Source: Owenia fusiformis | Taxonomy: Eukaryota; Annelida; Polychaeta; Sabellida; Oweniidae | DNA length: 64,000 nucleotides | Assembly: GCA_903813345.2 (NCBI GenBank) | Contig: CAIIXF020000004.1 | Span: 7,709,525 to 7,773,524, forward strand | Reading direction: 5' to 3' | Part shown: piece by piece, positions 11,801 to 58,865 of the stretch | How the letters are laid out: the number at the start of each line of letters is the position of its first letter | Position numbering within the stretch: the first letter of the stretch is position 1 | Translations under genes and position numbers: made by a program | The notes under the pieces: generated by a model | The model's database searches: none | Seen by the model: only the letters and a program-made list of their open reading frames with translations | What the model was told of the DNA's origin: nothing

Positions 11801-14800
11801 CAGTCATAACATTTTCAAAATTTTGTATAATATTACTAAACTGTCGGAGGCACATACACATGTATTTTATGATTTTAACATGTTAACTTGTAACTTTCTA
11901 TAATCTAAAAAGAAAGATCACTTATTCTTGACCCAACGAAATATAAAGAATAGGTCTAATTAGCCAAATACATGTCACAAATTAATCATATATTATGGCT
12001 TTTAAAATCAAATAACAAATGGTTCCCTTTTAATGGTAAGGATAACACAGTTTAAATCAAACCATCCAACCAAATCAAACTTATTAAAGCGGCAACAAAA
12101 ATTAACAAAACAGTTTAAATCAAACTTATATTTTAAAGTGGCATCAAAGATTTATTACACCGTTTGAATCAAACTGATTAAAGTGGCAATAACGATTACA
12201 GACTAGTAAAATGTTAAAAGCAATAAAGGCACGTTTCCTTCACAATCCAAATTTTTTTCTTCAATATCACCTGATTAAATATGGATGTTATAAAAATGTC
12301 CTAATTAATCTAAGTATTGTTTAATTATTGCAAGACAACTTTGTAAGTAACGTCAGAACTATTTGACCCCCAAAACACAGGCACGATAAGGAATATTGTG
12401 AGCAAAAAAATAAAGTAAAAACTGAGATAAATTTTCCCTCATTATATCTTTGTCATACCATTAAATACAAATACTATACAAAGTCTTGCATAATTGTTTC
12501 AGAGTGACACTAAAAATAAAATGTTATTCAAGTCTCCGGTTTCCAATTAAGTTTCATATCATTCTAATAGAAATGACATTTAAAAGATAATTGCTGAAAT
12601 ATACTCTAAGCCAATTTAATGTAATCTTATACTGTACACAGATTTTTTTTTTTTTTTTTATTATTATTAATTTATTGCAATCACTTTTATATCAGTGGCA
12701 CATAGTTTAACTAGTGCAGCAGTTAAAACATACAATACATGTGTGTAAGTACAATTCTAAAGCAGAGCTAAAAACATTTACAACATAAGACATAAAAACA
12801 AAACTAAAATATTTGCAATACATTAATTCGTTGGTGCTACATATATGTTTTTGATAAAATACTTTGAGCATGCATCAAAAATATAACCTTGTTCTTGACC
12901 CAAGATAGCATAGGCCGCATCCCCAAGCACCCATTCTAAACCATTATTGGGAATGCATGTCTTAAAATAATTATAAATGTGTGGAAGTCTATTCTCAATG
13001 CTATTATAAAATATAAACCTTTCCTCTTTAAACTTTGGGCAGGTAAAAAATCGATGTTCAGGAGTTTCTTTACAGCTCATATTACAAAAAGAACACGTTC
13101 CATCACTTATACCCCATCTCTCAAGATCAATGGCGAGACCAAAGCATCCTGATCTTGCCTTGAATTTAAGTTTTTGAGCATAGAAGTCAAAATCAGTTTT
13201 AAGGTATTTTTCCATAAGTGTGTTTCTTTTAATATTACTATATACTGTAAGTGACTTTTTCTGGTTTATCGAGTCAAAAAATGTATTGCGTAACAAATCA
13301 TTAGATATTTTCAAATATGACGAGTACCAATCTGTGTCCTCTCTGTATATTACATCGTCTAAACCATGGTTGGTCAAAATATCTTTAATGCTAGAAAAAT
13401 AAGACCAGGTGGCTGTATTTCCCTTTTTAAAGTCCTCAAACATATAATTTAAAATATTCTTGTGGAGCCCTGCTTTAAGAGAGCTCTTTAAATAGATAAA
13501 ATAGTCAATTTTTCTTTTTTCTATGACATTACATATAGGCCTCCATCCCAAGTCACCGAACAGGGCCTCCTTAGCAGGATTACACTTGAGTTGTAATAGC
13601 GATTTTCCTATCTTATATTGAAAGGTAGCTAGTGTTTTGCAATTTGATTTGTTCAATACGAAGGTACTACAACCATGCAAAATTGCAGGTACAAACATTG
13701 AATTATATATAGTATCACCAAAGCTTATGCGCTTTGCATTACAGTGTTTACTCAGAGTTGAACACAACATGCCTTGCATATGTTTAGCTTTTGGCTTAAG
13801 GAAGGCATCTATGTGATAGGTGTCCTTTAATGTCCTATCAAAGTAGACCCCCAGATATTTATAGTTTTGAACTTCAGTTAGTTGAAGATCACCAAGATGC
13901 CAAATTTTTTCTTTATTGATGCGCTTACCTATCACCATTACTTTTGACTTTTTTGGGCTATATTTAACGCCCCATTTTAGTGAAAATTTATTTGCAATTT
14001 GCAACATTTTGTTCAATTCCCCTTCAGATTCGGCCAAAAGGACGATATCATCTGCAAAAAGCAGAGCAGGGACATTTTCGTTATTAAAAGGTATTCCTGT
14101 GTTTTCTGAATGTAGCATCTCAATTAATTCTGTCATTATGAAGGAAAAAAGCATAGGGGATAAGCAGCAGCCCTGTTTCAGGCCTGTGGGAGCACTATAC
14201 CAGTCACTCTCAGGGTTGTTACCTGTGATTAGAGTGTCATTTTCAAAATTCAGATTTTTCATAAGTTCATTATCAAAAAAAATCACAGATTTCTACAATT
14301 CGCTCTGTTGTATGTGCTTTGTTCACAGTACGATCATGAGCACTCCTTGCCCTTTTCTTAAAATACCATTTGGTTCCGACAAATCACTTTATGTTAATCC
14401 TTTGAAAATTAATGGACATTCTTTTTTAAATTCTAATTAGGCTAAACAGGAAATTTTGTATCCGCATTTCATTAGATAGGTTAAATCACAAATCTTTTAC
14501 TAGACATTGAAAAAAATTGTAAGGGAATTACGAGGTTTATCCTACACTTAGTATACTAAATGTATAATAACATTAAAAAATAAATTTGATATTTATTGGC
14601 AAAATGAATAACCGGAGGATATCGTAACGATATACTCCGGGCGTAGGATATCGTGACGATATACTCCGGAAAACCGAATATGCGGAGGATATTGTGACGA
14701 TATACTCCGCTTGTTGATTTCCCACCAAATTGACTCTATTTGGCATGAAATTCATTTTGCAATGATATTATACATTTAGTACACTTCTTGTAAGTGTAGG

Positions 14801-17800
14801 ATAATAAGAACATCCTATCCTATATGTAATAAGAACATCCTATCCTATAATTGAAAAAAATAGTAAGGGAATTACGAGGATTATTTTATATCTTCTGTTT
14901 TTAGCTGCCACTTTTAAGTTTTATATGTATTTCCATGAACATGTTAGTATCCATATCAAAGAGATGCTCAGGTGTGGCACGTTTGATGCATCAGTCACAT
15001 TTGATCTACGGCAGCCGTATGGCGTCCAAAGCTTCCCAAAATCAAGAGAATTGGCAGCATAACATATAGGGATAAGCAGTACGGTGTAGATTTTTTAAAT
15101 CGATTTTGTGAAGCTACGACCTCCGTGCGTCCACCGTAAAGCAAATGTGACTGATTCCTTCTTTGAATCATCTAGAATAAGTATATGTTACCTCTCCTGT
15201 TGCCATGACAGTGACGTCATTTGCTATATCCCATAATGTCACAGTGACTGTACCTCTCCTGCATTGGAGCTCGAATGTTGGCTAGAAATATAATTACAAT
15301 GCAATATAATACGACATGATACCTAATGATATCTTATAAGAGCAGTAAAAAATCCATGTGTTTTAAGAGTCCTGAAGCAATATTGTACACAAACTCCCAC
15401 ACTCCCAGGAACCCTGATACCCCCTCCCAGACTCACCCTATACTAACCTGTATATTTCCTCCAACATCCACGTCACCATTTGTAATGACTCCATTGATAT
15501 CGCTACTATCAATCAAGAATGCCAATGTGAATTCCTGACCGTACCAATTATGTATAAAGATGGGTAATTTAGCGGGTGTAGGTCCACGGACAAACAGACC
15601 AATGTGGTCATCAGGGCCCGCAGGACCACCATCGAGAATCTTGCTGCTCCCAGGGTATATCGGTACATCATGATTGGCGTCGATCCAGTCGGAAAATGAC
15701 CAGTAGAGGCACCCAGGACATTCGACCGCGTCTAAGAAATATTTTTAATCCATACAAAATGCAAATTAGTATAGTATGAGGTGAGGCCCAGGGTGAGGCA
15801 CTTGTGTTTTCCAGGAATTGAAGAAATATTTTACGAGGGAAGAATCATGTTCAATAACATTATCATAAACCGCTATGTAGGGTTGTGCATATATAAACAG
15901 AATATATTGAAGCAAATCGACTCTCTAGAAAAATCAGATCCAAAACGATTCTGGGAATTGGTTCAACAATTGCGATCTAATGAACATAACAATAATAAAA
16001 CTAGTAACATTGATGCCGACTCATGGCTTAAATATTTTTCTGATCTGAATAAAAAACCTACATCCACATGTCGAGAATTTGAAAATGAAATCGAGTCAGA
16101 ACTTAATACATTAAAAATGAAAAACATCCTTATAGCACAACTAGATAGAGAAATATGTGGAGATGAAATATCCAAAACTTTGAGAGACTTGAAAAGCAAA
16201 AAATCAGGGGCAAATGATACAATCTCAAATGAAATGCTCAGATATAGTGGCAGTACTCTGATTAAACCCATGTCTAAGCTTTTCAATCTCATTCTAAAAT
16301 CAACATATTATCCTCTTATATGGTCATCTGGCGATATAGTTCCTCTTTACAAGAAGGGTGATGAGAGCGATCCTCAAAACTATAGAGGGATTACTTTAAC
16401 AAGCCTATTGGGTAAAGTTTTTACTTCAATTCTAAATTCAAGATTAGCACAATGGCTATCGGAGAATAAGATTTTATGCAAAAGTCAAATAGGATTTTGT
16501 AAAGAGCGGCGAACAACTGATCACATAATTGTTCTTAATTGTATTATTAAGTCCATGAGAGCAATAAAAAAGCCGTTATCTGCATGTTTTGTTGATCTTA
16601 AACGTGCATTTGACACAGTATGGCGACAAGGATTATTCTATAAACTTCATAAAATAGGCTTAAGTAGTCGCTTTATTAGTGTTATCGACCATATGTATGT
16701 GAATACTGAATGCAGAGTCAAGCTAAAAGGTGGTTTTACAGAACACTTTCCCAGTAATGTAGGGACTAGACAAGGCTGTAACTTGAGTCCGATGTTATTT
16801 AATATATATCTTAATGATGTTCCATCTCTGTTTAACTATGTAAATTTTGATCCTTATATTCTAGACGGAAACAAAATCAACACATTGATGTATGCCGATG
16901 ATATAGTATTGTTTAGTAAGACAGCGAAAGGATTACAGCTGATGCTGAACAAATTTGAAAAATATTGTAATACATGGAAATTAAATGTTAACATTAACAA
17001 AACCAAAGTGGTGATATTTAATGAAACTAAAAAGAAAAATATCTTTAAATTTGGTAATAGCATAGTTACACAGTGTGCAAACTATTGTTATTTGGGTGTA
17101 ACATTTCATCAAAACGGTAATTTTAAATTTGCATACAATGTTTTGTACTCAAAAGCACTAAAGGCTCAATATGCAGTCAAAAATGCTTTTTATAATAGTA
17201 ATGTGAAATCTCAGATCAAATTATTTGACACTATATGCTTCTGATGTTTTGGCTACAGATATTGTAAAGTTAAAAGACAAATCCTTGAAGGACGTACTTT
17301 TAAATAATTTATTTCCGTTTGAGAAGTTACACAATAGATATTGCAAACAGGTATTACGCGTCAATAATAACTGCAGTAACGTATCAGCTAAGGCTGAATT
17401 GGGCAGATACCCGCTGCTCATTAATATATTAGTTAGTACTCTAAAATTTTGGTTTCACTTGAAAAAGTCACCAACTGATTCATATTCATTTATTTTTAGT
17501 AAACATGAGGAAGACTCACATGAATCAGGGCATTGGAGCTTCTTTTCATTTATCACTCGGATTTTGTCAATATCCAATAAAAATATTGATATACAAAAAT
17601 TCGATACATGTGATCAAGTCAAAATTGATAATTTAATTAAATCTACAATGACAAATTTAGAAAAAGAATACAAAAGCGCGTTTATGCAAGACATCAATAG
17701 ACCAAATGATGCTCCAGGTAAATTCAGAAGCTATAAACTAGTAAAACATGCATATAAAAGAGAAAGTTATCTTAATTTACAGAACTCCACCTATAGACAA

Positions 17801-27456: not shown

Positions 27457-28054
27457 ATGAGTGAACGAGTCTTGAGAAAGCGTGTTGCACCTGCATCAGA
27501 GGCTCGCGGTGAGACATCTAGGCCAACATATCTGTTTTCCGATTCCAAATGTATTTCTGAAATACAATAAGAAGGAATATCTTACACAATGTACTACAAA
27601 AATAACTAGAGCAACAATTAATCATGCTATGCATATAAGAGAGGATTGGAACTTAATTCGCAAAATTGGCGGACGTGATCTTCTGGCTGGAGAGGCTCAT
27701 TTCCATCAGGCTTGCAAGCGCTCATATTGTGAACCTAAAATTGTTGGAAAACCTGAGGTAGATGACTATAGTGATTTAATTGAAAAAACTACAGGGACAA
27801 ATGTCAAATTTGATGAAAAAGAACCAGAGGAATCCAATGACCCATCATTCACCTACATATGTGAAAGGATATCCGAAGACATTATGCTTAGGAAGAATGT
27901 TGGTTCTCTTAATAACATTCACAAACAATATCAGACCCATAAACAAGAAAATGATCCCGTGAATTATCAAAAGGACTATCGCAGAAGTAGATTGAAATCT
28001 CGCTTGCAGTCTCATTATGGTAATAGAATAGTTTTACAGCCTGGTAAAAAATGA
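27457..28054 (+). CDS. Transposase N-terminal part, zinc-finger-like, frameshifted
   Basis: An ATG at 27457 opens a short frame ending near 27570. The adjacent frame (open from 27482) continues with YNKKEYLTQC, a GEAHFHQACKRSYC block with possible zinc-binding Cys/His, and ends at 28054. Together they look like the N-terminal DNA-binding region of the protein that continues at 28065, interrupted by shifts near 27565 and at an A6 run near 28046-28051. A TTTCAG just before 27448 could be an acceptor for an upstream exon. Confidence 0.55.
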
Positions 28055-28064
28055 GAAAGACATT

Positions 28065-31000
28065 TTGATTTATAGCTCAAGTCTAACTGTATCAGATATT
28101 GCCGACTCAGCTGCAATGGTAAATCAGACAAATGAACATGGATGCCTGCAGAAAGCAGCACATTATTTAAGAGACAAGATAATTGCTGCTAGTGAAAACG
28201 TCTCTCCAACAAACTGGCCACCATCTGCTTCAGAATTATCAGCAAGTATGTTCCACACTATTCCACCAGAGTTGCAATATTTTCTTATACTTCTGCTATC
28301 AGGCAATGACACAAAAATGAACAATACAAAATATAAACGCTTGACTCATACCATAGGGCAAGACATTTGCTATGGTGCAACAAATGGATCATTCAAAATG
28401 CCAAAACATTACTTGCTTGCGATAGCTATTCATCATCTTACAGGGAGTGCAGAGTTGATCACACTACTGAATCATCATGGCTACTGCACCAGTTACACAG
28501 AGGTCCTAGAAATAGAGACTGCAATATGTGAAGAGATTAAACAGCAAGTGTCATCCTTACCACCATCAATATCCATTTTGTCAAACCAAGTTCTGATGTA
28601 TTGCTTCGATAATTTTGATCTCAATGAGCAGACTCCCAGTGGTTCAGGAACTACACATTCTACCCATGGCATTGTCATTCAAGAACAGAAATCTGTGAAT
28701 CCTCACTGTCATCAAGACACAGCTATGGAGGTTGACGCACATACAGAGTCTAGTGAAAGTCAAGGTCAGCTGGAGCCAATGGATGATGATGGTGGTGATA
28801 TTTCTTCAGAATCTCAAGGTGGTGTGCCAATCCTTCTACCTCAGTCAGATGAACATGTTGATGAAATTGTTGATTCTAGTGCTCAGCCTCCATCACTTGA
28901 ACCAACTAAGGAACGCTACCCTAATGCAAGGAGGTCAGTTAAACTGACAGAGGACATATTACCACCATGTTATGCAGTTAACAAAGCAGAACCACCTAAA
29001 GGGTTTGGTGTCTTCACAATCTCAGAGGAAAGTGAGGTGGCATTAGCTAATGCTTCTAGAAGTGATCTGATGTGGATTTTGTGTCGTCATCAACAGTCAG
29101 AAAATCAGAGTGTCCCTAGCTGGGCAGGTTGGGTGTCACTAACAGGCAAGGGCTCAACTAATGTACCAGTTCAGTCTGTTATAGACTATCTTCCTCCAAT
29201 AAACCACCCAATAACTGAGAATGCTACGGTTCAAGAGTGCCTGAATATTGCTATGCAAGGAACAGCTGAGGTGGGCCAACATTACACATTAGTAACATTT
29301 GATCTGGCAGCAGCCAAAAAGGCCCTGAACATTGTATGGCAATTTCAAAAATACTGTACTGTGATTGTAATGTTAGGTGTTTTCCATTCGCTGTGTTCTT
29401 ATTTCTGCACCATTGGAAAATTTGTGAGGGGCTCTGGTTTTGAAGAGATACTGCTTGAATCAGAAATTTGTGCTAGTGGATCATTAGATGCAGTCCTTAA
29501 TGGAAAAAATTACAACAGAAGCCTGAGAGTTCACAAGATAATGTATGAAGCACTGGAACGTATGTTGTTTGAGAAATTCCAGCAGGAACACCAACTAAAT
29601 CCAGCTGCAAAGAAGAAACTTCAAGATCTAGCTGAAAACCTAAATGAAGAGCTTCTGCAGCAATCCCTCTCTGATAAAGATGTTAGTGAATTCTGTCAAA
29701 AATTCTTCCAGTTCAAAATGGACATCAGACAAGGGAAAATGGGTAAAACTCCACAGTTCTGGGTCCAGTACAGTGATATGGTTGGCACTGCACTTCAGTA
29801 TATCCGTGCCACAAAGGAAAATGATCTCAACCTCCACATTGGAGCACACTCAGCCATGAATAGTGCATTCTTTGCCATGGACCATCAAAATTATGCCAGA
29901 TTTCACTGTTACCAATTTCTCACCCTTCTCAACCTAGATAAGACACATCCTGGTGCAACAGAGCTCATCTCAAACAATGGATTTTCTGTTTCAAGATCAG
30001 ATGTATCATGCTCACGAAATCCTGTGGACATTACCATAGAACAAACTATCAATTGCAATGCAAAATCTAAAGGTGGTATTGTTGGTTTCAGTAGGAACAA
30101 GGGTGCATATCAGCGCTGGTGCGTTACACGAACACAGAGAGGACTGTATACAGAGGCTGCCCTTGATATAGCTGGAATGAGAGACTCAGACGATATCCTC
30201 CATAGAGACAACTCATTAGCCCAAGTAACAACATCTGAAGCTGGTGTAAAGTCAGTAATGCAGGCATTCAAAAGCTTCATCAACCCATTTGACATCAATG
30301 AGCCTGCTCTTCACTGTGTATCATCTGGTTTGCCAGCCCCAGCAGAAGTTCAAGGGCTGACTGATGCATTACAGAAAGGTTACCAAGCAAGTGAACAATT
30401 CATTGATAGACTGAGAGTTCAAAACTCAGAACTTAAGTTTCACGATAGCATAAAAAAGATGAAAGTTGCAACATTTGCAAATTCTGCTGTGACCAAGAAG
30501 ATGACAACTTCAAAAAATAAGGTTGTTGAAATCAGCGCCACAAGAAACCTATTTGGCCAACTACTTAATGTATCTCAAAACAGTGAGATTAGTCTTGAGA
30601 GGCTCATGGGATATTGCATGGGTCCTGTTCCTTGGCCTCTCGCCCTACCTGATGGTTCTCTAGCAAAAACACCAAAGTCAACACTCATTCATGAGCTGCA
30701 AGGGAATGACAGTATTCCATCTCCCCCATCTGAATCAATAACTATCTTGGATGGAAATATGAGTTTCTATCAAATGGAAAAAATAGCACCAATATTTGGT
30801 AAAGTTGCAAGAGACATATTCACACACTTACCAAAATCCAAGAACGTACATTTTGTAACCGATTCCTACCATGAAAACTCCATTAAAGATCTTGAGAGAA
30901 ACAAAAGGGGGCAGTCAGATCCAATTATCCTGAAGGGAGCCCACACTAAAACCCCATCAAAATCATGGAATAACTTCCTAACAAGTGGCAAAAATAAAGA

Positions 31001-31985
31001 GGAACTTATCAAGTTCCTGTTACGTGAATGGCAAACCAAGAAGTATGCCAGTGATCTGAAGGGAAGAAACATCTACTTCTCAGACCAAGAGAATACAATT
31101 CTACTCACAAGTGATGGTGAAAAGGTTTATACTTCCCCAGTAAATGACCTAGCATCTAACCAAGAAGAAGCAGATACAAAGATGATTCTTCACATGCTGT
31201 TCGCTGCAAGACATGGAAAACCAGTAATTGTTCGATCCCTTGATACTGATGTCTTTCTACTACTCCTAAGGTATGCTGACAGGGTCGATGTACCGATATA
31301 TTTTGACACTGGAAAAGGAGATGGACGTCGCCTCCTTGACATCCAAGCAATAGCCTCCCGCCTGGGCCAGCAACTTTGTGAAGCACTGCCCAGCTTCCAT
31401 GCTTTCACGGGGTGCGATAGCACTAGTGCATTCATTCGCAGAGGCAAGATAAAGCCACTCAAAATTCTTACCAGAGGTCCTCCAGATGAAAGGAATCGTT
31501 TCCTGAAACTGTTTACTACAATGGGAAATACTGTTGAGGTTACCAACCAAATGGAATCTACTGCTGAGGACTATGTTTGCAAAATGTACTCTAGAAAAAC
31601 CAAGCTAAGGAACATCAACAAACTTCGCTATGAACTATTTCAACAAAGATATTCCCCCAAGAAATCAGGAGATGCTTTGACTTACGATGGAACTGACTTG
31701 TCACTGTTACCCCCCTGTAGAGACTCTATAATTCAAAAGTTGAAAAGGAGTAACTATCAAAGCTATATCTGGAAACAAACACACATTGCTGTCAGTGAAC
31801 TCCCAAATGCCACGTTGCATGGCTGGCAACTTGATACCAATGGTAACATTGAGCCACAATGGTCTAGTTTACCCGTCTTACCGAAAGACCTTGTAGATCT
31901 GCTTGATGAGGTTGCTGAGCCTATTGTACTTGAAGATGCAGACTTCTTGGGAAGTGTTGAGGGTGGGGATGTTCTAGACAGCTAG
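28065..31985 (+). CDS. Academ-like transposase: DDE-type core plus XPG/FEN-like nuclease
   Basis: An intact 1306-codon frame. Candidate DDE residues lie in CFDNFDLNE (~178), TLVTFDLAAAKKA (~411) and PVDITIEQTINCNAK (~652). The C-terminal third has acidic motifs spaced as in XPG/FEN1 nucleases: VTDSY (~930), QEEADTKM (~1032), RSLDTDVFLLLL (~1057) and FTGCDSTSAF (~1112). These correspond to the ExE, DxD and GxD blocks of FEN1 (family knowledge; assignment by eye). The long inverted repeats around it mark a mobile element, not a host gene. The preceding 190 codons are in another frame, one nucleotide off at an A6 run, so the natural protein is probably about 1500 residues. The long intact frame suggests recent activity. 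Confidence 0.7.
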   Translation: MIYSSSLTVSDIADSAAMVNQTNEHGCLQKAAHYLRDKIIAASENVSPTNWPPSASELSASMFHTIPPELQYFLILLLSGNDTKMNNTKYKRLTHTIGQDICYGATNGSFKMPKHYLLAIAIHHLTGSAELITLLNHHGYCTSYTEVLEIETAICEEIKQQVSSLPPSISILSNQVLMYCFDNFDLNEQTPSGSGTTHSTHGIVIQEQKSVNPHCHQDTAMEVDAHTESSESQGQLEPMDDDGGDISSESQGGVPILLPQSDEHVDEIVDSSAQPPSLEPTKERYPNARRSVKLTEDILPPCYAVNKAEPPKGFGVFTISEESEVALANASRSDLMWILCRHQQSENQSVPSWAGWVSLTGKGSTNVPVQSVIDYLPPINHPITENATVQECLNIAMQGTAEVGQHYTLVTFDLAAAKKALNIVWQFQKYCTVIVMLGVFHSLCSYFCTIGKFVRGSGFEEILLESEICASGSLDAVLNGKNYNRSLRVHKIMYEALERMLFEKFQQEHQLNPAAKKKLQDLAENLNEELLQQSLSDKDVSEFCQKFFQFKMDIRQGKMGKTPQFWVQYSDMVGTALQYIRATKENDLNLHIGAHSAMNSAFFAMDHQNYARFHCYQFLTLLNLDKTHPGATELISNNGFSVSRSDVSCSRNPVDITIEQTINCNAKSKGGIVGFSRNKGAYQRWCVTRTQRGLYTEAALDIAGMRDSDDILHRDNSLAQVTTSEAGVKSVMQAFKSFINPFDINEPALHCVSSGLPAPAEVQGLTDALQKGYQASEQFIDRLRVQNSELKFHDSIKKMKVATFANSAVTKKMTTSKNKVVEISATRNLFGQLLNVSQNSEISLERLMGYCMGPVPWPLALPDGSLAKTPKSTLIHELQGNDSIPSPPSESITILDGNMSFYQMEKIAPIFGKVARDIFTHLPKSKNVHFVTDSYHENSIKDLERNKRGQSDPIILKGAHTKTPSKSWNNFLTSGKNKEELIKFLLREWQTKKYASDLKGRNIYFSDQENTILLTSDGEKVYTSPVNDLASNQEEADTKMILHMLFAARHGKPVIVRSLDTDVFLLLLRYADRVDVPIYFDTGKGDGRRLLDIQAIASRLGQQLCEALPSFHAFTGCDSTSAFIRRGKIKPLKILTRGPPDERNRFLKLFTTMGNTVEVTNQMESTAEDYVCKMYSRKTKLRNINKLRYELFQQRYSPKKSGDALTYDGTDLSLLPPCRDSIIQKLKRSNYQSYIWKQTHIAVSELPNATLHGWQLDTNGNIEPQWSSLPVLPKDLVDLLDEVAEPIVLEDADFLGSVEGGDVLDS

Positions 31986-33289: not shown

Positions 33290-34005
33290 TGGATGAGTGT
33301 TCAGCTTCAGGACATATACTATTTCGTAATTTATATCATATTTCGTTACATCACACTCGCACTGATGAGTGTTCAGCTTCAGGACATATACTATTTCGTA
33401 ATATATATCATATTTCGTGACATCACACTCGCACTGATGAGCGTTCAGCTTCAGGACATACTATTTCGTGATATATATCATATTTCGTGACATCACACTC
33501 GCACTGATGAGTGTTCAGCTTCAGGACATATACTATTTCGTAATATATATCATATTTCGTGACATCACACTCGCACTGATGAGCGTTCAGCTTCAGGACA
33601 TACTTTTTACTATTTCGTGATATATATCATATTTCGTGACATCACACTCGCACTGATGAGTGTTCAGCTTCAGGACATATACTATTTCGTAATATATATC
33701 ATATTTCGTGACATCACACTCGCACTGATGAGTATTCAGCTTCAGGACATACTATTTCGTGATATATATCATATTTCGTGACATCACACTCGAACTGATG
33801 AGCGTTCAGCTACAGGACATACTATTTCGTGATATATATCATATTTCGTGACATCACACTCGCACTTTTGAGCGTTCAGCTTCAGGACACATACTATTTC
33901 GTAATATATATCATATTTCGTGACATCACACTCGCACTGATGAGCGTTCAGCTTCAGGACATACTATTTCGTGATATATATCATATTTCGTGACATCACA
34001 CTCGT
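33290..34005. repeat. Minisatellite, ~70-76-bp unit, about ten copies
   Basis: Units read GATGAGYGTTCAGCTTCAGG, ACATACTATTTCGTRATATA, then a CGTGACATCACACTCGCACT block. Longer units (with an extra ATAT and TTCGTAAT) interleave with shorter ones (TTCGTGAT). The repeated motif TGACATCA resembles a CRE/AP-1-type site. Confidence 0.9.
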
Positions 34006-35207: not shown

Positions 35208-38200
35208 TTAGTTGCCTCTTGTAGGTGTTTCTCCAATATTGTCAACGTAAATATCCATTTCACTGGGCGTCCAAGCGAAATCACAAATCGCCAGCTGTAA
35301 AATATTATGAGATTCATTCATTCTCGTATGATTGTGAAATTCTATTGAATTTTAGTCACATGGTGACGTAACTATAAGCTATTTAGACCCTTGGGTAAAA
35401 TGCACGCCATTTTTGAGCCCCTTTCTATAAAAACGAGTCATTTGGAGCCAAATTGATAAATCCTAGGGTTTTCAAGAATTAATTTCAATTTGATGACAAC
35501 AATACATATTTATCAGCTGCCATAGAAAAGGTTTTTACAGTGTTAAAAAGCCACAATGTCATGTCTTTTGTACAAAATAATCGAATGTTTTTAACTGACA
35601 AACTACATTGAGATGGCTTGCTTTTTTTAATATAACAATTACCCAATCAGAATGCAGTATTTCAATAATGTGGCTAATAACTTTAAATATTACTCACATG
35701 GGCAAGGTTTGCATTTACGTTGAAGACTAAGGGGGAATCAGTTCCTTCGAACACAACTGGAAATAATAGATAAGAGCAGTTTATTATTAGGCCATTCAAA
35801 GTTAAGTTTGACAACGTTGAGGAAACTCTCACTACCATCATATTCAACCTCGTTCTGAAGGCGGTTAATTGAAACTGAACAGTCACCCTCAGTGGTAGCC
35901 AATTGTCATTTAACTATGGTTCAAGAGGAGTCTGAATAGGAAAGAATCATTCATGTCCTAGACAGAACAAACAAATAAAATCCAATGCGTCAATTAGGAT
36001 ATGATTTGTCTGTTTTTCTGCAAGAAAAATGGCTCACCAAGCCCGTAGCTAGGATTTACCTGGGAGGGAGCGGTTTACTAAGGGTAGCTTTGGCCAAGGG
36101 GGAGCTTTTTGACAGTTTTTGGCAAAAAATCAGGCGAAAACTGCTCAGAATGGTGAAAAACTGCATAATGTTGAAAGAATTTCTGGCCAGTGGGGGTAGC
36201 GGCCGCTCCCTCCGCTCCCCCTGGCTACGGGCCTGCTCACTAATACAAGTGTGATTGAAAATTAAACCGATAAGCGAGTATGTGATGTAATGTTTGAGTC
36301 CTTGCGAAACTTCAATAAATCGTAACTTGATACATTTCCCTGCTGGAAATATGGTAGACAGTAATGAGTTTGATTGCTATTTGATAGTAAAATGATCTAC
36401 TGTAAATGATATTATGCGATTACACAATAGGTGAAATGATGAGACAAAATAGCTACATCTGCCGTATGTAGATGCTTCGCTATAGATGCAATGACGAGGC
36501 AAAATAGCTATAATTAATGAGGTGAAATGATGAGGCAAAATAGCTATGAGGTGAAATGATGAGGCAGAATAGCTAAATCTGACGTATGTAGATGCTTCGC
36601 TATAGATGCAATGACGAGGCAAAACAGCTATAATGAGGTGAAATGATGAGGCAGAATAGCTATGAGGTGAAATGATGAGTCACAATAGCTAAATCTGACG
36701 TATGTAGATGCTTCGTTGTAGATGCAATGATGAGGCAAAATAGCTATAATGAGGTGAAATGATGAGGCAGAATAGCTTAATCTGACGTATGTAGATGCTT
36801 CGCTATAGATGCAATGACGAGGCAAAATAGCTATAATGAGGTGAAATGATGAGGCAGAATAACTATTATGAGGTGAAATGATGAGACAAAATAGCTATAA
36901 TGAGGTGAAATGATGAAGTAAAATAGCTATAATGAGGTGAAATGATGAGTCAAGGTAGCTATAATGAGGTGAAATGATGAGTCAAAATAGCTATAATGAG
37001 GTGAAATGATGAGACAAAATAGCTAAATCTGACGTATGTAGATGCTTCGCTGTAGATGCAATGACGAGGCAAAATAGCTATAAGATGAAATGATGAGGCA
37101 GAATAGCTATTATGAGGTGAAATGATGAGACAAAATAGCTATAATGAGGTGAAATGATGAAGTAAAATAGCTATAATGAGGTGAAATGATGAGACAAAAT
37201 AGCTAAATCTGACGTATGTAGATGCTTCGCTGTAGATGCAATGACGAGGCAAAATAGCTATAATTAATGAGGTGAAATGATGAGGCAGAATAGCTAAATC
37301 TGACGTATGTAGATGCTTCGCTATAGATGCAATGACGAGGCAAAATAGCTATAATGAGGTGAAATGATGAGGCAGAATAGTTATTATGAGGTGAAATGAT
37401 GAGACAAAATAGCTATAATGAGGTGGAATGATGAAGTAAAATAGCTACAATGAGGTGAAATGATGAGTCAAGGTAGCTATAATGAGGTGAAATGATGAGT
37501 CAAAATAGCTATAATGAGGTGAAATGATGAGACAAAATAGCTAAATCTGACGTATGTAGATGCTTCGCTGTAGATGCAATGACGAGGCAAAATAGCTATA
37601 ATGAGGTGAAATGATGAGGCAAAATAGATATTATGAGGTGAAATGATGAAGTAGAATAGCTACTCTGTATGGAAAATGATGAGGTAAAAAGCGATCGTGT
37701 ATATGAAATTAAGAGACAAAATAGCGTCATTGTAGATGAAATGATGAGGAAACTAATAAGACATTGTAGATAAAAACGTATGAGGCAAAATAATTGCACT
37801 CAAGGTGAAATAATGAGGCAAAATACATGTAATTATGCAGCTACACTGTTTGTGTATTCTGTTAACGTCATGTAACTGCGTGTGTACCACATGTGATGAT
37901 TCTGTCATTCGATTTTTAAGGGTACTGTAGCTATTGCAAACGTACATTCCTTGGGTATGGCCGTGACAGCGCCATCTTTGTTTACTTGAAGGCCCTCTGG
38001 TGAGAGTTTTATAATCACGTGTCCTGAAGCACCTTTCTGAAATAAAAATGAAAATCTGAAATAATTTGAGAATACTATTCTAGTAGGTCAAATTAGCCAA
38101 ATAACTAATGTTTCTTATGATGAGTCAAACTCATGTGTTCACATCGCTATGTGATGTAAAATATTGTTTAAATCAAACTACTAGATATGTACATGTATCA

Positions 38201-50248: not shown

Positions 50249-52711
50249 TTAGACTCTTGAGGGGTACAGCATCTGGAAGCACAAAAATAACAAATCTTAG
50301 ATATACTGTTATTTCATAAAATACAAGGATTACAAATGCAAATCTAAACAACAATGCAGTTCAGACAAGGGCTTTACAAACGATTTCTTTGTATGGACAG
50401 CTATGTTGTTTTTCCTCAAATGTAAGGTCATAGGATTTTTTATAATGACATTTAAGATTCGTAATTTTTTTATAATACACATTTTAGGTTTTGAATTTTT
50501 AGCATTCCAATTTTTTGTCCAACATTTTAAGATTTTTGATACCAATTAGACATGTTAGAGTTAGCTGCACAACAGATTTCACAATTACTATAGTATTTGC
50601 GATTTTCTACCTTTGGATCTTTAATAGTTTCACTATTTAATATTACTTTATTATTTACTTTATATTGATCCAAAATATTTCAGATTCTATCTCAAATTTA
50701 ACCTCTTGAATCCCATGCTCTAAAATCAGTTTGAAACCAGAAAATTTTCAATTTTTGCCAGCTTTTGACATTTTACTACACACATCGCAGTAGTGGATGC
50801 TCAAATTGCCATACTGTACTCCTGGTATATTTCGACGCTTTAAATTTCGCGTTTTTTCAAAATTGCAATTTCGCGGCTATTTAATTTGGCTTATTTGAGT
50901 TAATGACATTTCGAGGATTGCACAAGTTGAATTGACGCCTTCCGATTACCGTCAATCAATGCGTATCTTGCTATTTTAGCCCGTTCAGAATCCGAATATG
51001 TTTGTATTTCCCACGTTTAGGGTATTTATTTGAATATTCTTGAATGGCTTTTTCAACTTCAATTAGTAGGATATCATTGTCGTCAACAGTTCTTGCCTTT
51101 GTTGGCCTAATAAGCCAATTCAAAATGTTAGACATTTTAGGCCTTTTTTAAATTATCGCCCAACGACACTGGACGAAACGTTTTCACAACAAATGTTCAC
51201 AAATGTCCACATCACGACAAATGTTTGAGATTTTACAACATTCGCGAACAAAGCGAAATTAAATCGCACGCGAACAATACCCAGAGTACAGTATTAGGTT
51301 TCAAGGTAATTTCTTAGATGAAGAGAGATCTCGTCATTCTGGGATTAGTCAATGGTTAATGCAATAACAGAAAGACTTACAACTCTGATTCTTCTGCCCA
51401 TAGCTTTAGCTGGAAGATTTTTCCTGAACTTTGCTCTAACTGCACCGCTGTTTCCATGGGAACGTGTGATTTTGCCCCAGATCACTCTAATTTTATTGGC
51501 CTTATCTTTGCCTGGGGTGGCAGTCTTACTGTAATAAAAAACAATAATATCATTCACATTTGTGATTTAATGAAATCACTGGGCAGGGTTCTCACCAGGA
51601 AGTTTTAGACAACAGATTTTTCGCTCTATCATGACTACTACTCCCCCTGTGAAATCAGATATATCATATTACTTATTAAGTAGTATACTATTCTACCATC
51701 CCATTTAAATCACAATATACATTTCTAAAAGGTTTCTGACTGCCTATTCCTTGTTCATGTGTTTTCTCAAGAGTTTTACCACAAATTATGTGACAAAAAA
51801 TGTAAAACTAGACTCCAGAAAAAACACTTTGGACTTCAGAAAAGCTATTAAGACTCTGGAGTAAGAGAGTCTAAAGACATTCGACTCTGAAGAGTCTAAA
51901 AGCCTAGTGAGAGCCCTGCTGGGTAATACTGTAATATGTTACATGGACACAATGCTAAGATATATTATAAAAGGGGCAATCAATAAACTTCAGAAGTTTT
52001 GTAAATGGATGATCTTCTGGTGGCAAAATCAAAATTGTAGTGACAACTTTGAATCTAAAATTGAAGGATCATATTACAACATTATATAGAAAAATAAAAA
52101 CATGTACCTGTCCTAACTTTCCAGATAGGTAAGTATAATGTGTAATTTTAGTAGTTTTGTACTATGATAGCAAAATTACAAAAACAAACTAAAGCATACA
52201 AAAGTTAGGCCATGTCAGTGCTCTCCCTTGAATTTTTGTGTGGAGGATTTTAGGATTTTTTTTTGAAACATTTTACGATTTTGTAGTTTTTAGTGCAACA
52301 TTTTAGAATTTGTTTTTTATTGTAACATTTTAGGAGGTGCATCTAATTGCATTGAAGAGTATTTTGGTTTTATAAAATACATGGAGGTGCCTCAAGAGAT
52401 TTCAATGTGGGGAGAGCACTGCATGTACCTTATTGATGTTTTTATTTTCCATAATCTGTTGGTTCTTCAATCGCTTATTTCTAAAATTCAAAGTTGTGAA
52501 CTTACTTTTTGGCTTTGTAAACATATGCGCATCTTTTGCCCAGGTAGAATTCTGTGTCATCTTTGCGTGACACACCATCTATCTTGAGGAGAGATGTATT
52601 TTCACGCTGGTTCCTAAGTCCTCTCTTGAAGCCAGTGAAGACGGCTTTGCAGTAAAGTCTACCTGCCTTCTTGGGTGGGTTACCCTTCACGACAACGGTT
52701 TCTTCTGACAT
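50249..52711 (-). CDS. RPL35A: 60S ribosomal protein eL33 (RPL35A)
   Basis: Three coding exons (52711-52506, 51528-51381, 50272-50249) in perfect phase give 125 aa. The core is unmistakable: [73 protein letters not shown], and the tail VMLYPSRV. The last coding exon is only 24 nt. It is preceded by a CTTCCAG acceptor and encodes MLYPSRV and the stop; it would be missed without the conserved tail. The N terminus is about 15 residues longer than in vertebrates ([15 protein letters not shown]). Exon 2 begins after a CTTTCAG acceptor just upstream of the ATG, so a 5' UTR exon lies upstream (near 53151-53190). A MITE sits in the last intron. Structural component of the large ribosomal subunit in the cytosol. 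Confidence 0.95.
50814..51291. mobile_element. Tc1/mariner-type MITE in an eL33 intron
   Basis: Inverted ends CTGTACTCCTGGTAT and ATACCCAGAGTACAG are flanked by TA on both sides (50812-50813, 51292-51293). The TTTCGCG-rich interior resembles the 4862-5352 element in style. No ORF. Confidence 0.8.
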
Positions 52712-53543: not shown

Positions 53544-56500
53544 ATGTTGGAGGAGGCGGAGTCGATCCATGTGGCAGCGGTCCTTGAGGACTGTGTCGAT
53601 CAGTTAGCCGTTCTTGGAAAAATTATGCCATCGACATTTGAAGCAAGAAAAGATGCATCAGAAGTAAGTTGATATAGGGAATGATTAATTAGACAAAATT
53701 GAATTTTTTGCTTGCATAAAACTTCTAGATTATTTTGCATGGCATGTACAGAGTGCATTGCCTCATAGTCCGTAAGTCTCTAAACACTTTTTGAACATTT
53801 TTTTGAGGATCTTTCATTATTTTCACCATTTTTAGGAGTACAGCGCAGTTAATGAAGTATTATTTTCTCGCTTTTCCGTTCTCTAGATTGTTGATGATGA
53901 AATATCTCAACTGGTTGAAGGCCAAAAGAACTTAGAGGACAAATACGAGCATGCTGTCGCCAGTAAAGGCAAGGATATGCAGAGCATAGGCAAAGATCTT
54001 AAGAACAGCACACATATATTTGCAAGAAGCCTGAAGCAGAGTCCACTTACACCTGATAACATGGGAAAATTGCAGGATGACAGGTATGTAATAATATTTT
54101 AACCAGTTTCTGACATTTCCTAGTCTAAATACAATGTACAGGTAGATAGATGAAATTTCATACCCTTCTAGAAAAATTCAGTTACTGAAATTACAAATTC
54201 TTCTTATTTCTTCAATAATAATATTGATATTTTGTATTTTCTGCTTACATTTACGTTAGATTATTTTCTCCAGTTTTGGAAATTTTCTACTCAGAATAGA
54301 TTACAGTAAATGAGAATTTTGTACCCTTTTGAGAAAACCTCTACTGATTTTATACATTCTTTTTATTAATTTGATAGTACATACATGTATTAAAATTCTA
54401 TACTTTTCACTTTCAGGGCATTTCTAGAAACTGTACTGTTTGATGCCATGAGAGAGATCATTCAGTCGGGAAACTTTGAGAGTTTGATCCAAGCTGTAAA
54501 GTTAGAGAAGGAGAAAAAACAAAGACTCCAGGAAACAATTTTGAAGTAATGGCAACATTTTTATTTATAAGTACAACCATGGGCTTTCAATAGTGTATTG
54601 AATGCCCATTGTACAACATGTATTTTTTTATTTTCAAACCATGTAAGACTATGAGTGAACAATTATTTAATGTTGATAAATTGTCTAAAAAAGTAATTAC
54701 AGTAATTATGTTATTAGGGGGTAAAATGATTTTTAGTTTTCTGGGGTTTCGTCTTCTGCAATTTCTGATTTGACAGGCACGGTATGATCATTGAATATCC
54801 TCGACAGATATGTATGAAGAGAATTTGAAATATGTTGTTCATAGCCGTAGCATATATTGAATGCAGTGGGGATGTACTTGAAATCTGCACGCAATTTAAC
54901 ATTTCGACTTGTTTACCCCACATGCAAATCAACATTTTGTTAAAAGGGGAGGGGGTTAAAACCTAACTAAATTAATTACTTTTTTGACCCGGCCCTTTAA
55001 TTAAATGAACTTAATTAATTAAATGAACTTATCAACGTTACAGGGAGGAACAGGGACGTAAGAGGGTCAAAGAACTCCAGAGAAAATTGATTGATGTCAA
55101 AAGAGAAAAAGAGACGGAATGTCAAGAGAGGGATGAGATGATTGCCCATCTGAAGGATCAACTCCAGGAAATGAAAGCTAAGACCAACATGGAAGGTTTG
55201 TAATCAACTCAAATTTATTTGCTTATGTCACAAGTGTAGCCAACTGGCTATGATATAAGACAAAGGACGATTCTCAGTTTGGAGAACAGTCTCCTGGGTT
55301 AATAATTTTTTTCATGAAAAATATAGAAATATTACCCAAATTTAACTATAAATATTCAAAAGAAGACATTTAAATCTACAAAATGTAAACATAGCAAATT
55401 GGTCTGTAGCAGGGATAACGCTCAATTAGACCGATTCAATAAAATACAAGTCTCGATTTGGGGAAAAAAGTTCATCAGTGTACTGCGCTAATATTTTTTT
55501 GTCAAAAATCTAGAAATAATACCCAAATTAAACTATGACTATTCAAAAAAAGACATTAAAATCTATATTATGTAAAAAAATCAAATTTGTCCGAAGCAGG
55601 GATAATGCTCATTTATTTTGATGAACTTCGTTCTCCAAACCGAGAATCGTCCTTTACATACATGTCAAAAGTAGTTCTTAAGATGTATTAAAATGAAATG
55701 AAATGTTTCAAACAAAACACATCATTTATACTATTTGTCACATTTAGGCAAGTATATCAAAAAGTGTGCTGAAGTGGGTGTTGCGCAGACACAGAAGAAA
55801 TGTTTCCTAACTGAGAATGAGCTAAAGACTGAGATCGACAGACTGCGACAACAAGTGGATGAAGAGACGAGAGTTAACACGGAAATAGAGGCTTACCTCA
55901 GAACACATCAAACAGTAAGCTTTACCATTCAAGCCAAAAATATACTTTCTTACCATGTGTTATCAAAAATGTCTTGAACCCCAAAATATAATTTCCAATA
56001 ATCCTCTCAGCCTACATGTACATATACATGTACTGTACATGTATGTAGACCCAATATAGCATATTGTATTCACATCAGAACCAAATAGAAATGTACTGTA
56101 TGAACATAATCGTTGCCTCAGTCACATTTGATCTACATATGTTTTATATGTCTCTGATCTAAAGCAATAGTACAGCGGCCATAGCTTCCCAAAATTGAGA
56201 GATAAGCAGTACGATGTAGATTTTTTAAAACAATTTTTGAAGCTACAGTGTCTCCATGGCCGCCTTGGAGCAAATGTGACTGAGGCTTAACATGTGACAT
56301 TTTTTCATGCTAGTGCCATATTCAAATTTGAGCCTTTATTGATAAAATTAATAAAATCTTTTATTTTCTTAAATAGAAATTTCATGCTTGATTTTTTTGC
56401 AGGAACTAGAAACAAAGGTGGACTATTGGATGGGAAAATACGACGAAGATGTGGAAAAGAAACAAAAAGAGCTTGATATTCTAAAAGCAAATAAAGCAAA

Positions 56501-58146
56501 AGATTTAGAAAGACTGCAAGACCTCACAAAACTGGTATGATATTTTTTTATTCAAACACATTGTTTTGGATGCAGCTACTTTTATTCAAATAACTTAATT
56601 ACTTATTTTTCATTATTTTCTGGGTTATGCACATTAAAACCTGTATATCCTAATGCCTCTATGAACTGAACACCTCTCAGGCAGAAGATGAATGCTTTTG
56701 CATTTTTCCTTAACATTTTTGAAATTCCATTGTTTTTAAAAGCATGTATGCTGTATACAGAGCAGCCATTTTGAATGAAAATTAAAGTCAATATTTCACA
56801 TATTTCATTGTTTTCTTTTCCAGTATGCAGAATATGAACAGATTGTTGTGGAGGATCGGGTGGAGAAAGAAAAAGCAAGGAGGAAGGCAGAACTAGAAGC
56901 TGAGGAGCTAAGAGCTGCCATAAAAGTAAGAACATTTCTATGTCGTCTGTTCAGCCCTTTGCATTAATTTTTTCTTTAAAAGATTGAAGCGTCCCAATTT
57001 TATGGTATTTTTGTATAATTTAGAATGGTCACTATTTCCTCGAGTCTTGTCAATAACTTGGCGAGACATCATGGCATGTTGAACAATGTATACTTACAAT
57101 GTGGGGAAAATTGAGGGGTTGAAAAATATTCATCCTCCTAAGCAGGTGTCCAGAATCCGTACCTCCTTCTTCCCCCCTGCTATAACCAATTTGGAAGCGC
57201 CTGATTAAACTGAATCATGTGATCTTATTATGTGCAATGACCTATACATGATTTCTGTCGCCAATCAGATTGCGAGTTCTTAATCGGGGAAATGCTAACT
57301 GCTTATCGCAGGGGGTAAAAAGAAAGAATATATTCTGGATTTTGAAGCCCTGTGATCGGAGGTTGAAAAATATTTAGATGCCACAGTATTTTAAAAGTTG
57401 TGAGGATAGCTCTTTAATTGAACTTGGAACACACTGTCATTTGTGAGATATTACATGCTTTCATCTAAAATTGAAATCAAGGGGTCTGCCCTTTTTAAAA
57501 ATGCTCTGATATCAACTTAATTTATTCACATGCTATTCTTTGTTTTCAGTTACAAGCCTGGTTCAGAGGAGTCATGGTGAGGAGATGCCTGGTATTCAAT
57601 TGATTTATTCACATGCTATTCTTTGTTTCAGTTACAAGCCTGGTTCAGAGGAGTCATAGTGAGGAGAGGCCTGGTATCCAATTAATTTATTCACATGTTA
57701 TTCTTTGTTTCAGTTACAAGCCTGGTTCAGAGGAGTCATGGTGAGGAGAGGCCTGGTATCCAATTAATTTATTCACATGCTATTCTTTGTTTCAGTTACA
57801 AGCCTGGTTCAGAGGAGTCATAGTGAGGAGAGGCCTGGTATCCAATTAATTTATTCACATGTTATTCTTTGTTTCAGTTACAAGCCTGGTTCAGAGGAGT
57901 CATGGTGAGGAGAGGCCTGGTATCCAATTAATTTATTCACATGCTATTCTTTGTTTCAGTTACAAGCCTGGTTCAGAGGAGTCATGGTGAGGAGAGGCCT
58001 GGTATCCAATTAATTTATTCACATGCTATTCTTTGTTTCAGTTACAAGCCTGGTTCAGAGGAGTCATGGTGAGGCGAGGCCTGGGACCTTACAGCAAAAA
58101 GAAAAAGAAGAAGGGCAAGAAAGGAAAGAAGGGGAAAAAGAAATAG
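53544..58146 (+). CDS. DRC9/IQCG: Dynein regulatory complex protein 9 (IQ domain-containing protein G)
   Basis: Eight coding exons in consistent phase: 53544-53663, 53887-54083, 54417-54545, 55044-55195, 55748-55914, 56403-56534, 56824-56925 and 58042-58146 (367 aa). Most of the protein is charged coiled coil. The C-terminal part [19 protein letters not shown], then an IQ motif [17 protein letters not shown] and a poly-Lys tail ending at the stop, match the DRC9/IQCG family; the vertebrate form is somewhat longer. DRC9 is a subunit of the nexin-dynein regulatory complex of motile cilia and its IQ motif binds calmodulin (family knowledge). The ATG follows a TTCTTTAAAG acceptor, so a 5' UTR exon is expected upstream. 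The last intron and exon are amplified into seven 82-bp repeats, leaving seven candidate acceptors; only the last unit reads on into the normal C terminus. Confidence 0.92.
55262..55655. mobile_element. MITE with an internal direct duplication in a DRC9 intron
   Basis: Inverted ends AAAGGACGATTCTCAGTTTG and GAGAATCGTCCTTT. Two ~120-bp direct copies inside share ATTCAAAARAAGACATT and GCAGGGATAAYGCTCA. No ORF. Confidence 0.75.
56117..56286. mobile_element. MITE with TCAGTCACATTTG ends, copy B
   Basis: Same family as 14991-15154: CTCAGTCACATTTGATCTAC and GCAAATGTGACTGAG ends with AGCTTCCCAAAATT and GATAAGCAGTACGATG inside. Confidence 0.8.
57534..58080 (+). repeat. Seven 82-bp repeats, each with a splice acceptor and IQ-motif sequence
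   Basis: TTACAAGCCTGG starts at 57550, 57632, 57714, 57796, 57878, 57960 and 58042, an exact 82-bp period. Each unit has CTTTGTTTCAG or TGTTTTCAG, the sequence for [14 protein letters not shown], and ATTAATTTATTCACATG spacer. Units 1-6 run into a stop-containing spacer; unit 7 continues into the true C terminus. Confidence 0.95.
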
Positions 58147-58380: not shown

Positions 58381-58865
58381 TGATCAAATCTTAACTATAA
58401 TTTTTTTCATTGTTACTCATGGTTTGAATTCCTCCACAGATTATTTACTGAGCAATAATCCAATTTATAACTAACCAAATAGATCAAATCTTAACTATAA
58501 TTTTTTTCATTGTTACTCATGGTTTGAATTCCTCCACAGATTATTAACTGAGCAATTATCCAATTTATAACTAACCAAATAGATCAAATCTTAACTATAA
58601 TTTTTTTCATTGTTACTCATGGTTTGAATTCCTCCACAGATTATTAACTGAGCAATTATCCAATTTATAACTAACCAAATAGATCAAATCTTAACTATAA
58701 TTTTTTTCATTGTTACTCATGGTTTGAATTCCTCCACAGATTATTGACTGAGCAATTATCCAATTTATAACTAACCAAATAGATCAAATCTTAACTATAA
58801 TATTTTTCATTGTTACTCCGGGTTTGAATTCCTCCACAGATTATTGACCGTCCAATTATCCACAT
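58381..58865. repeat. Five 100-bp tandem repeats
   Basis: GATCAAATCTTAACTATAAT recurs at about 58382, 58482, 58582, 58682 and 58782, an exact 100-bp period. The last unit is the most diverged. It lies just downstream of DRC9, possibly beyond its 3' UTR. Confidence 0.95.

Follow-up and report, generated by a model that had tools for sequence, protein, structure and literature searches.

The window analysed here, a stretch of 64,000 nucleotides from the annelid Owenia fusiformis, carries on its forward strand, at 53544-58146, a gene with eight coding exons. Joined conceptually across GT-AG introns of 223, 333, 498, 552, 488, 289 and 1116 nt, these exons give a coding sequence of 1104 nt, stop included. 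The encoded protein matches PDB DRC9 chains 9fqr (E=1e-83, residues 7-367), 8j07 (2.5e-80) and 8glv (1.2e-29), as well as the IQCG fragments 4m1l and 4lzx. Homology over residues 7-367 takes in both the coiled coil and the C-terminal IQ motif, and the gene is DRC9/IQCG, as the initial annotation had proposed. Head-to-head with it, on the minus strand at 52502-52711, lies a reading frame that we take to be RPL35A-like; human RPL35A likewise neighbours IQCG.

The array at the last intron-exon boundary of DRC9

The boundary between the last intron and exon 8 is amplified into seven 82-bp units, each with its TTTCAG acceptor (7 of 7), which agrees with the first description of the locus. Tandem Repeats Finder (TRF) reports a period of 82 with 7.0 copies and a score of 1072, far above chance; the array begins near 57506 rather than at 57534, and what is repeated is the intron tail together with about 43 nt of exon, not a 27-nt exon. 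Successive exon starts are spaced exactly 82 bp apart (Table 1). Full exon 8 is entered from unit 7 only, the other copies being truncated: when units 1-6 are read through, a complete IQ motif is followed by a short tail and an in-frame stop (C/F/I variants). The product would finish in VSN* (or VFN*) and lose the Lys-rich tail alone.

Table 1. Features of DRC9 and of the two arrays of like design (positions without a contig label are those of the window)
Feature	Location	Strand	Basis
DRC9 CDS exon 1, ATG at 53544	53544..53663	+	conceptual GT-AG join; PDB homology
DRC9 exon 2	53887..54083	+	conceptual join
DRC9 exon 3	54417..54545	+	conceptual join
DRC9 exon 4	55044..55195	+	conceptual join
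DRC9 exon 5	55748..55914	+	conceptual join
DRC9 exon 6	56403..56534	+	conceptual join
DRC9 exon 7, phase-0 end before GTAAGA	56824..56925	+	conceptual join
DRC9 array, 7 units x 82 bp: ~40 nt intron tail with acceptor + ~43 nt exon 8 start	57506..58084	+	TRF; unit table; unit comparison
Unit 1 exonic copy, up to its in-frame stop	57550..57603	+	unit table
Unit 2 exonic copy, GTCATA	57632..57685	+	unit table
Unit 3 exonic copy	57714..57767	+	unit table
Unit 4 exonic copy, GTCATA	57796..57849	+	unit table
Unit 5 exonic copy; no difference from unit 3 across the unit	57878..57931	+	unit table; unit comparison
Unit 6 exonic copy	57960..58013	+	unit table
DRC9 true exon 8 (unit 7 acceptor): IQ motif, Lys-rich tail, stop 58144-58146	58042..58146	+	unit table; conceptual join; PDB homology
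KIF4-like kinesin, 18 units x 159 bp, acceptor + truncated exon start	G000:C2:23266359-23269174 (L005)		profile search; PDB
ISWI/SMARCA-like gene, 5 units x 137 bp, design as DRC9	G000:C2:4915297-4916006 (L007)		SNF2 profile search; PDB

Unit 1 is the most divergent, with 5-7 differences from the others, and units 2-7 differ from one another at 0-4 positions. Unit 2, which is not an edge unit, comes second in divergence, and unit 7 carries one private change. The identity of units 3 and 5, the ATA change common to units 2 and 4 and the distance of unit 1 from the rest make it likely that two units (164 bp) were duplicated together inside the array.

Arrays of the same design in other genes

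A survey of the same genome, comprising 809 matches to nine protein families in which arrays were spotted by eye, yielded at least two sister arrays, the profile searches scoring best candidates only. In the first, stretch 290-327 of the kinesin profile is matched 18 times at a spacing of 159 bp (one step of 158), in a gene whose best PDB match is KIF4. Copies 1-17 stay in frame to NKPVAL* (13 copies) or NKPVVL* (4 copies), and the 18th continues through the full exon to its donor. In the second, a stretch of the SNF2 profile is matched four times from 143 to 177-179 and once from 143 to 196, the matches lying 137 bp apart; here a SMARCA-family chain heads the PDB matches and ISWI comes next. 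The order of parts is the same in all three genes, truncated exon starts first and the complete exon last. Their unit lengths of 82, 159 and 137 bp are 1, 0 and 2 mod 3, which argues that no frame constraint acts on them. If earlier acceptors were used, the kinesin would end just past its motor domain and the ATPase partway through a domain, so that these two genes seem to need their last acceptor. No arrays were seen among the 25 ABC_tran and 14 AMP-binding matches surveyed.

The sister arrays also bear on whether the DRC9 array could be an assembly artefact, with a wrong copy number or a consensus error. Tandem repeats are error-prone, the copy number comes from one assembly, in which the array occurs once, and an amphioxus array of related type was once aberrantly assembled in a draft genome, as told in the part of PMC3087553 covered here. 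Against this, 579 bp is a small distance for long reads, should the assembly rest on such reads, distinct variants follow one another in order across the units, and two further arrays of like type exist in the genome. We regard an artefact as extremely unlikely.

Splicing of the array

Arrays that duplicate an intron-exon boundary have been described in amphioxus under the name of mirages: minisatellites found at this position in the globin genes BflGb6 and BflGb9, in Adh3 and in TnC (PMC3087553, PMC3902484, each covered in part). The BflGb6 mirage has units of 150-160 bp made of the 3' end of the intron and the 5' part of the exon, acceptor signals included (PMC3087553). The DRC9 array resembles them, as far as the covered parts of these reports go, in its boundary-spanning units (intron tail, TTTCAG, start of exon 8), in the complete authentic exon adjoining one edge (unit 7 only), in splice signals kept in all seven units, and in the homogenisation of inner units with exclusion of edge units (no difference between units 3 and 5, unit 1 apart). 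It differs in lying in another gene and another phylum, an annelid rather than a lancelet, and in having counterparts here, for a total of at least three genes. In keeping with an annelid, profile PF16915 of the annelid erythrocruorin linker has 3 matches in this genome above its cut-off (best E=5e-7); a search for COX1 gave no match. Adh3 data and globin RT-PCR suggest regular splicing in amphioxus (PMC3087553), and in the covered part of PMC3902484 the Adh and TnC mirages yield no aberrant mRNAs; the repeats of PGBD5 are likened there to mirages, as similar yet imperfect. The three PDB DRC9 alignments compared (9fqr, 8j07, 8glv) show nothing inserted directly ahead of the IQ motif. We conclude, with a probability of roughly 0.8, that the DRC9 array is a mirage, a tandemly duplicated intron-exon boundary that would be spliced out as intron with acceptor 7 mainly used. 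By the same analogy, variation in copy number between individuals is plausible, as had been suggested.

Several observations pull against the mirage reading. The literature, covered in part and including work on annelids, molluscs and intron gain, describes mirages for amphioxus only, and none were found in it outside that group. All seven DRC9 acceptors look intact, so that sequence alone does not force the choice of the last one, and preference for the first would give a short form of DRC9.

Earthworm metallothionein minisatellites were considered as a parallel and set aside: in the part of the literature covered, they are intronic and do not lie at exon boundaries. The minisatellite of the human gene IFI6 (6-16) reportedly provides splice donor sites, a finding credited to Turri et al. 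in 1995. It is alike in supplying several splice sites from an exon-edge minisatellite (PMC4526556, covered in part), and it differs in that these are donors, not acceptors, and that alternative use is reported there.

If the seven near-identical acceptors compete, two stable forms of DRC9 could be made, a full-length one from acceptor 7 and one from acceptors 1-6 that ends in VSN*/VFN* without the Lys-rich tail. The in-frame stop of the first six units falls after a complete IQ motif. Exon-junction nonsense-mediated decay requires a junction downstream of the stop; exon 8 being terminal, there is none to trigger it. The equivalent choice in the sister genes would nevertheless leave a kinesin that stops just beyond its motor domain and an ATPase broken off within a domain, and acceptors of this type are probably ignored there, and the amphioxus data suggest normal splicing (PMC3087553, in the part covered). 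Two stable forms thus appear unlikely. Minor use of upstream acceptors, giving some DRC9 that lacks the Lys-rich tail, is possible, and an early acceptor would be less harmful in DRC9 than in the sister genes, as the IQ motif would be kept and the tail alone lost.

The initial annotation had gone further, proposing that a 27-nt mini-exon (LQAWFRGVM), ending in GTCATG and followed by GTGAGG as donor, could be spliced in from 0 to 6 units ahead of the terminal IQ motif. Part of this stands. The segment is in frame, with phase 0 at both ends, and exon 7 ends in phase 0. GTCATG is found in 5 of the 7 units; the other two, units 2 and 4, have GTCATA, which changes M to I and weakens the donor. Donors were scored over the nine positions of the consensus MAG/GTRAGT, which 16 donors inferred in this genome match at 5-9 positions. 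By this yardstick, ATG/GTGAGG is indeed a plausible donor (7/9, within the genome range), and ATA/GTGAGG reaches only 6/9.

The length of the introns weighs against chains of mini-exons. Those of adjacent units would be separated by introns of 55 nt, whereas 114 introns inferred in this genome all measure at least 117 nt, none of the 114 falling under 100 nt (kinesin, 34 introns, minimum 118; PTP, 28, minimum 157; dynein heavy chain, 52, minimum 117). These introns were inferred from neighbouring profile matches on one contig with a gap under 15 kb and a small profile step, using 126 of 144 kinesin rows (18 array rows excluded), 99 of 99 PTP rows and 78 of 80 dynein heavy chain rows (slightly wider step), a procedure that would miss any intron next to a very short exon, or one that a single match spans with stops. 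With a 117-nt minimum, only 13 splice chains with 0-3 mini-exons would fit, instead of 64 chains with 0-6, and chains of mini-exons were rejected as the main reading on this ground.

Further evidence points in the same direction. By the IQ consensus, the nine-residue insert is not a complete motif, since the residues after VM would be L-Q and not V-R-R; the extra segments would be incomplete IQ motifs. GTGAGG is present in true exon 8 too, as V-R codons, and so looks like a by-product of these codons; a downstream duplicate of the exon, described below, has GTGAGA. Donors were scored in two units from DRC9 and in a single unit from each of the sister arrays, where the best donor reached at most 5/9 in the kinesin and at most 6/9 in the SNF2 gene. 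With no strong donor in the scored sister units, and with unit lengths of 1, 0 and 2 mod 3, the IQ mini-exon looks incidental. Its splicing-in is, we think, very unlikely, and the function proposed for the mini-exons is weakly supported.

Nor is the DRC9 array a cluster of mutually exclusive exons: units 1-6 are truncated, and the 27-nt piece cannot replace exon 8. Such clusters likewise consist of tandem copies of coding exon sequence within a gene. Theirs, however, are complete and diverged exons with both splice sites, whereas the DRC9 copies are near-identical truncated exon starts that run into an in-frame stop. Two apparently mutually exclusive exon pairs met in the survey are spaced by 47 nt (L006, Pkinase, G000:C10:2255500-2259000) and 50 nt (L008, Ion_trans, G000:C5:18144500-18147000), which is expected if introns so short cannot be spliced, and both pairs are probably made exclusive by this sub-minimal spacer. 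A third pair (L009, Ion_trans, C8) is 225 nt apart, so tight spacing is not universal here. All three were rejected as arrays, the first being diverged GSK3-like exons and the others channel exon pairs with no array over the match; the labels GSK3 (L006), Kv (L008) and Cav are our presumption. At G000:C9:37986009-37994334, in what we take to be a muscle myosin gene, 12 matches to one N-terminal segment of the motor form a row that is a candidate for an unusually large cluster of exclusive exons. Exclusive exons in muscle myosin are attributed to 'all bilateria except chordates' in the part of PMC3912159 covered here, and such a row would thus speak against a lancelet as the source of the genome.

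Inferred origin of the array and possible exchange between its copies

Returning to the mirage reading, the array would have arisen when about 40 nt of the 3' end of the intron were tandemly duplicated along with roughly 43 nt from the start of the final DRC9 exon, a route that we infer. The first duplication was perhaps primed by a 3-bp CTG homology: before unit 1 the intron reads GCTCTG-ATATCAAC and the true exon GGCCTG-GGACC, and CTG, being common to both sites, makes such priming possible, three bases being weak evidence. Slippage or unequal exchange may then have expanded it, at one point by two units together, as the likeness of units 2-3 to units 4-5 suggests. The spliceosome would remove 56926-58041 and join exon 7 mainly to the seventh acceptor, producing full-length DRC9, and the array would be tolerated because it behaves as intron. 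Exon definition, an established mode of splice-site recognition, may account for the choice of the last acceptor, in that only the last copy has a partner; for the kinesin and SNF2 genes this would be the donor further downstream, and for DRC9 the poly(A) end.

Some 15 kb downstream, the last three exons of DRC9 recur in a degraded duplicate (L002), whose last exon is matched at G000:C4:7782796-7782908. Its copies of exons 6 and 7 are about 96% and 90% identical to the originals, most of the intron sequence being unmatched; its last exon is interrupted by a stop within the IQ motif, differs in its tail and is preceded by a single acceptor. This single acceptor fits a single-copy ancestor with expansion after the duplication, and it could also reflect loss.

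Differences among the exonic copies of the three arrays were pooled and tested for synonymous bias, with transitions weighted fourfold, in a test devised after the kinesin variants had been seen. Twelve of 16 changes were synonymous where 4.6 were expected (P=1.5e-4); counting two linked kinesin changes once leaves 11 of 15 (P=4e-4). By array, the proportions were 7/9 in the kinesin, 4/4 in the SNF2 gene over the shared 83 nt, and 1/3 in DRC9, which taken alone shows no bias (1 synonymous, 2 not). The SNF2 differences at positions 83-89, past the duplicated stretch, were excluded; with them the SNF2 ratio of synonymous to other changes becomes 6:4.

Such a bias is unexpected for a purely non-coding array unless copies exchange with the functional exon, and counts to that extent against the mirage reading. 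We read it as probably reflecting exchange of the copies with the true exon, which is under selection, although this may not explain it fully; translation of the copies would equally predict it. It is conceivable, if doubtful, that the units are not inert, either since upstream acceptors are often used (for tail-less DRC9, or for 1-3 mini-exons) or through continual exchange with the functional exon, the synonymous bias being then the visible trace of purifying selection. In that case mirages outside chordates would be widespread and active, supplying new exons and introns and isoforms of varying length.

With three arrays in an annelid genome, mirages would extend beyond chordates and become a broader feature of animal genes. 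They would offer a natural setting for testing how as many as 17 near-perfect decoy acceptors are passed over in splicing, and one in which the proposed passage from a duplicated boundary to a gained intron could be followed. The practical consequence for DRC9 is modest, in that gene prediction at this locus may yield spurious mini-exons or truncated ends.

Other repeats and frames were noted in the window. A second minisatellite, at 58382-58862 (100 bp x 4.8, 97% matches), begins about 240 bp past the DRC9 stop codon and has an acceptor-like CCTCCACAG in each unit. Further long minisatellites are found at 5359-7392 (154-bp period), 33292-34004 (72-bp) and 36490-37749 (about 32-bp). An open frame of 1317 aa without Pfam match occupies 28032-31982, and reverse-transcriptase frames are present at 12826-14292 and 15775-17241.
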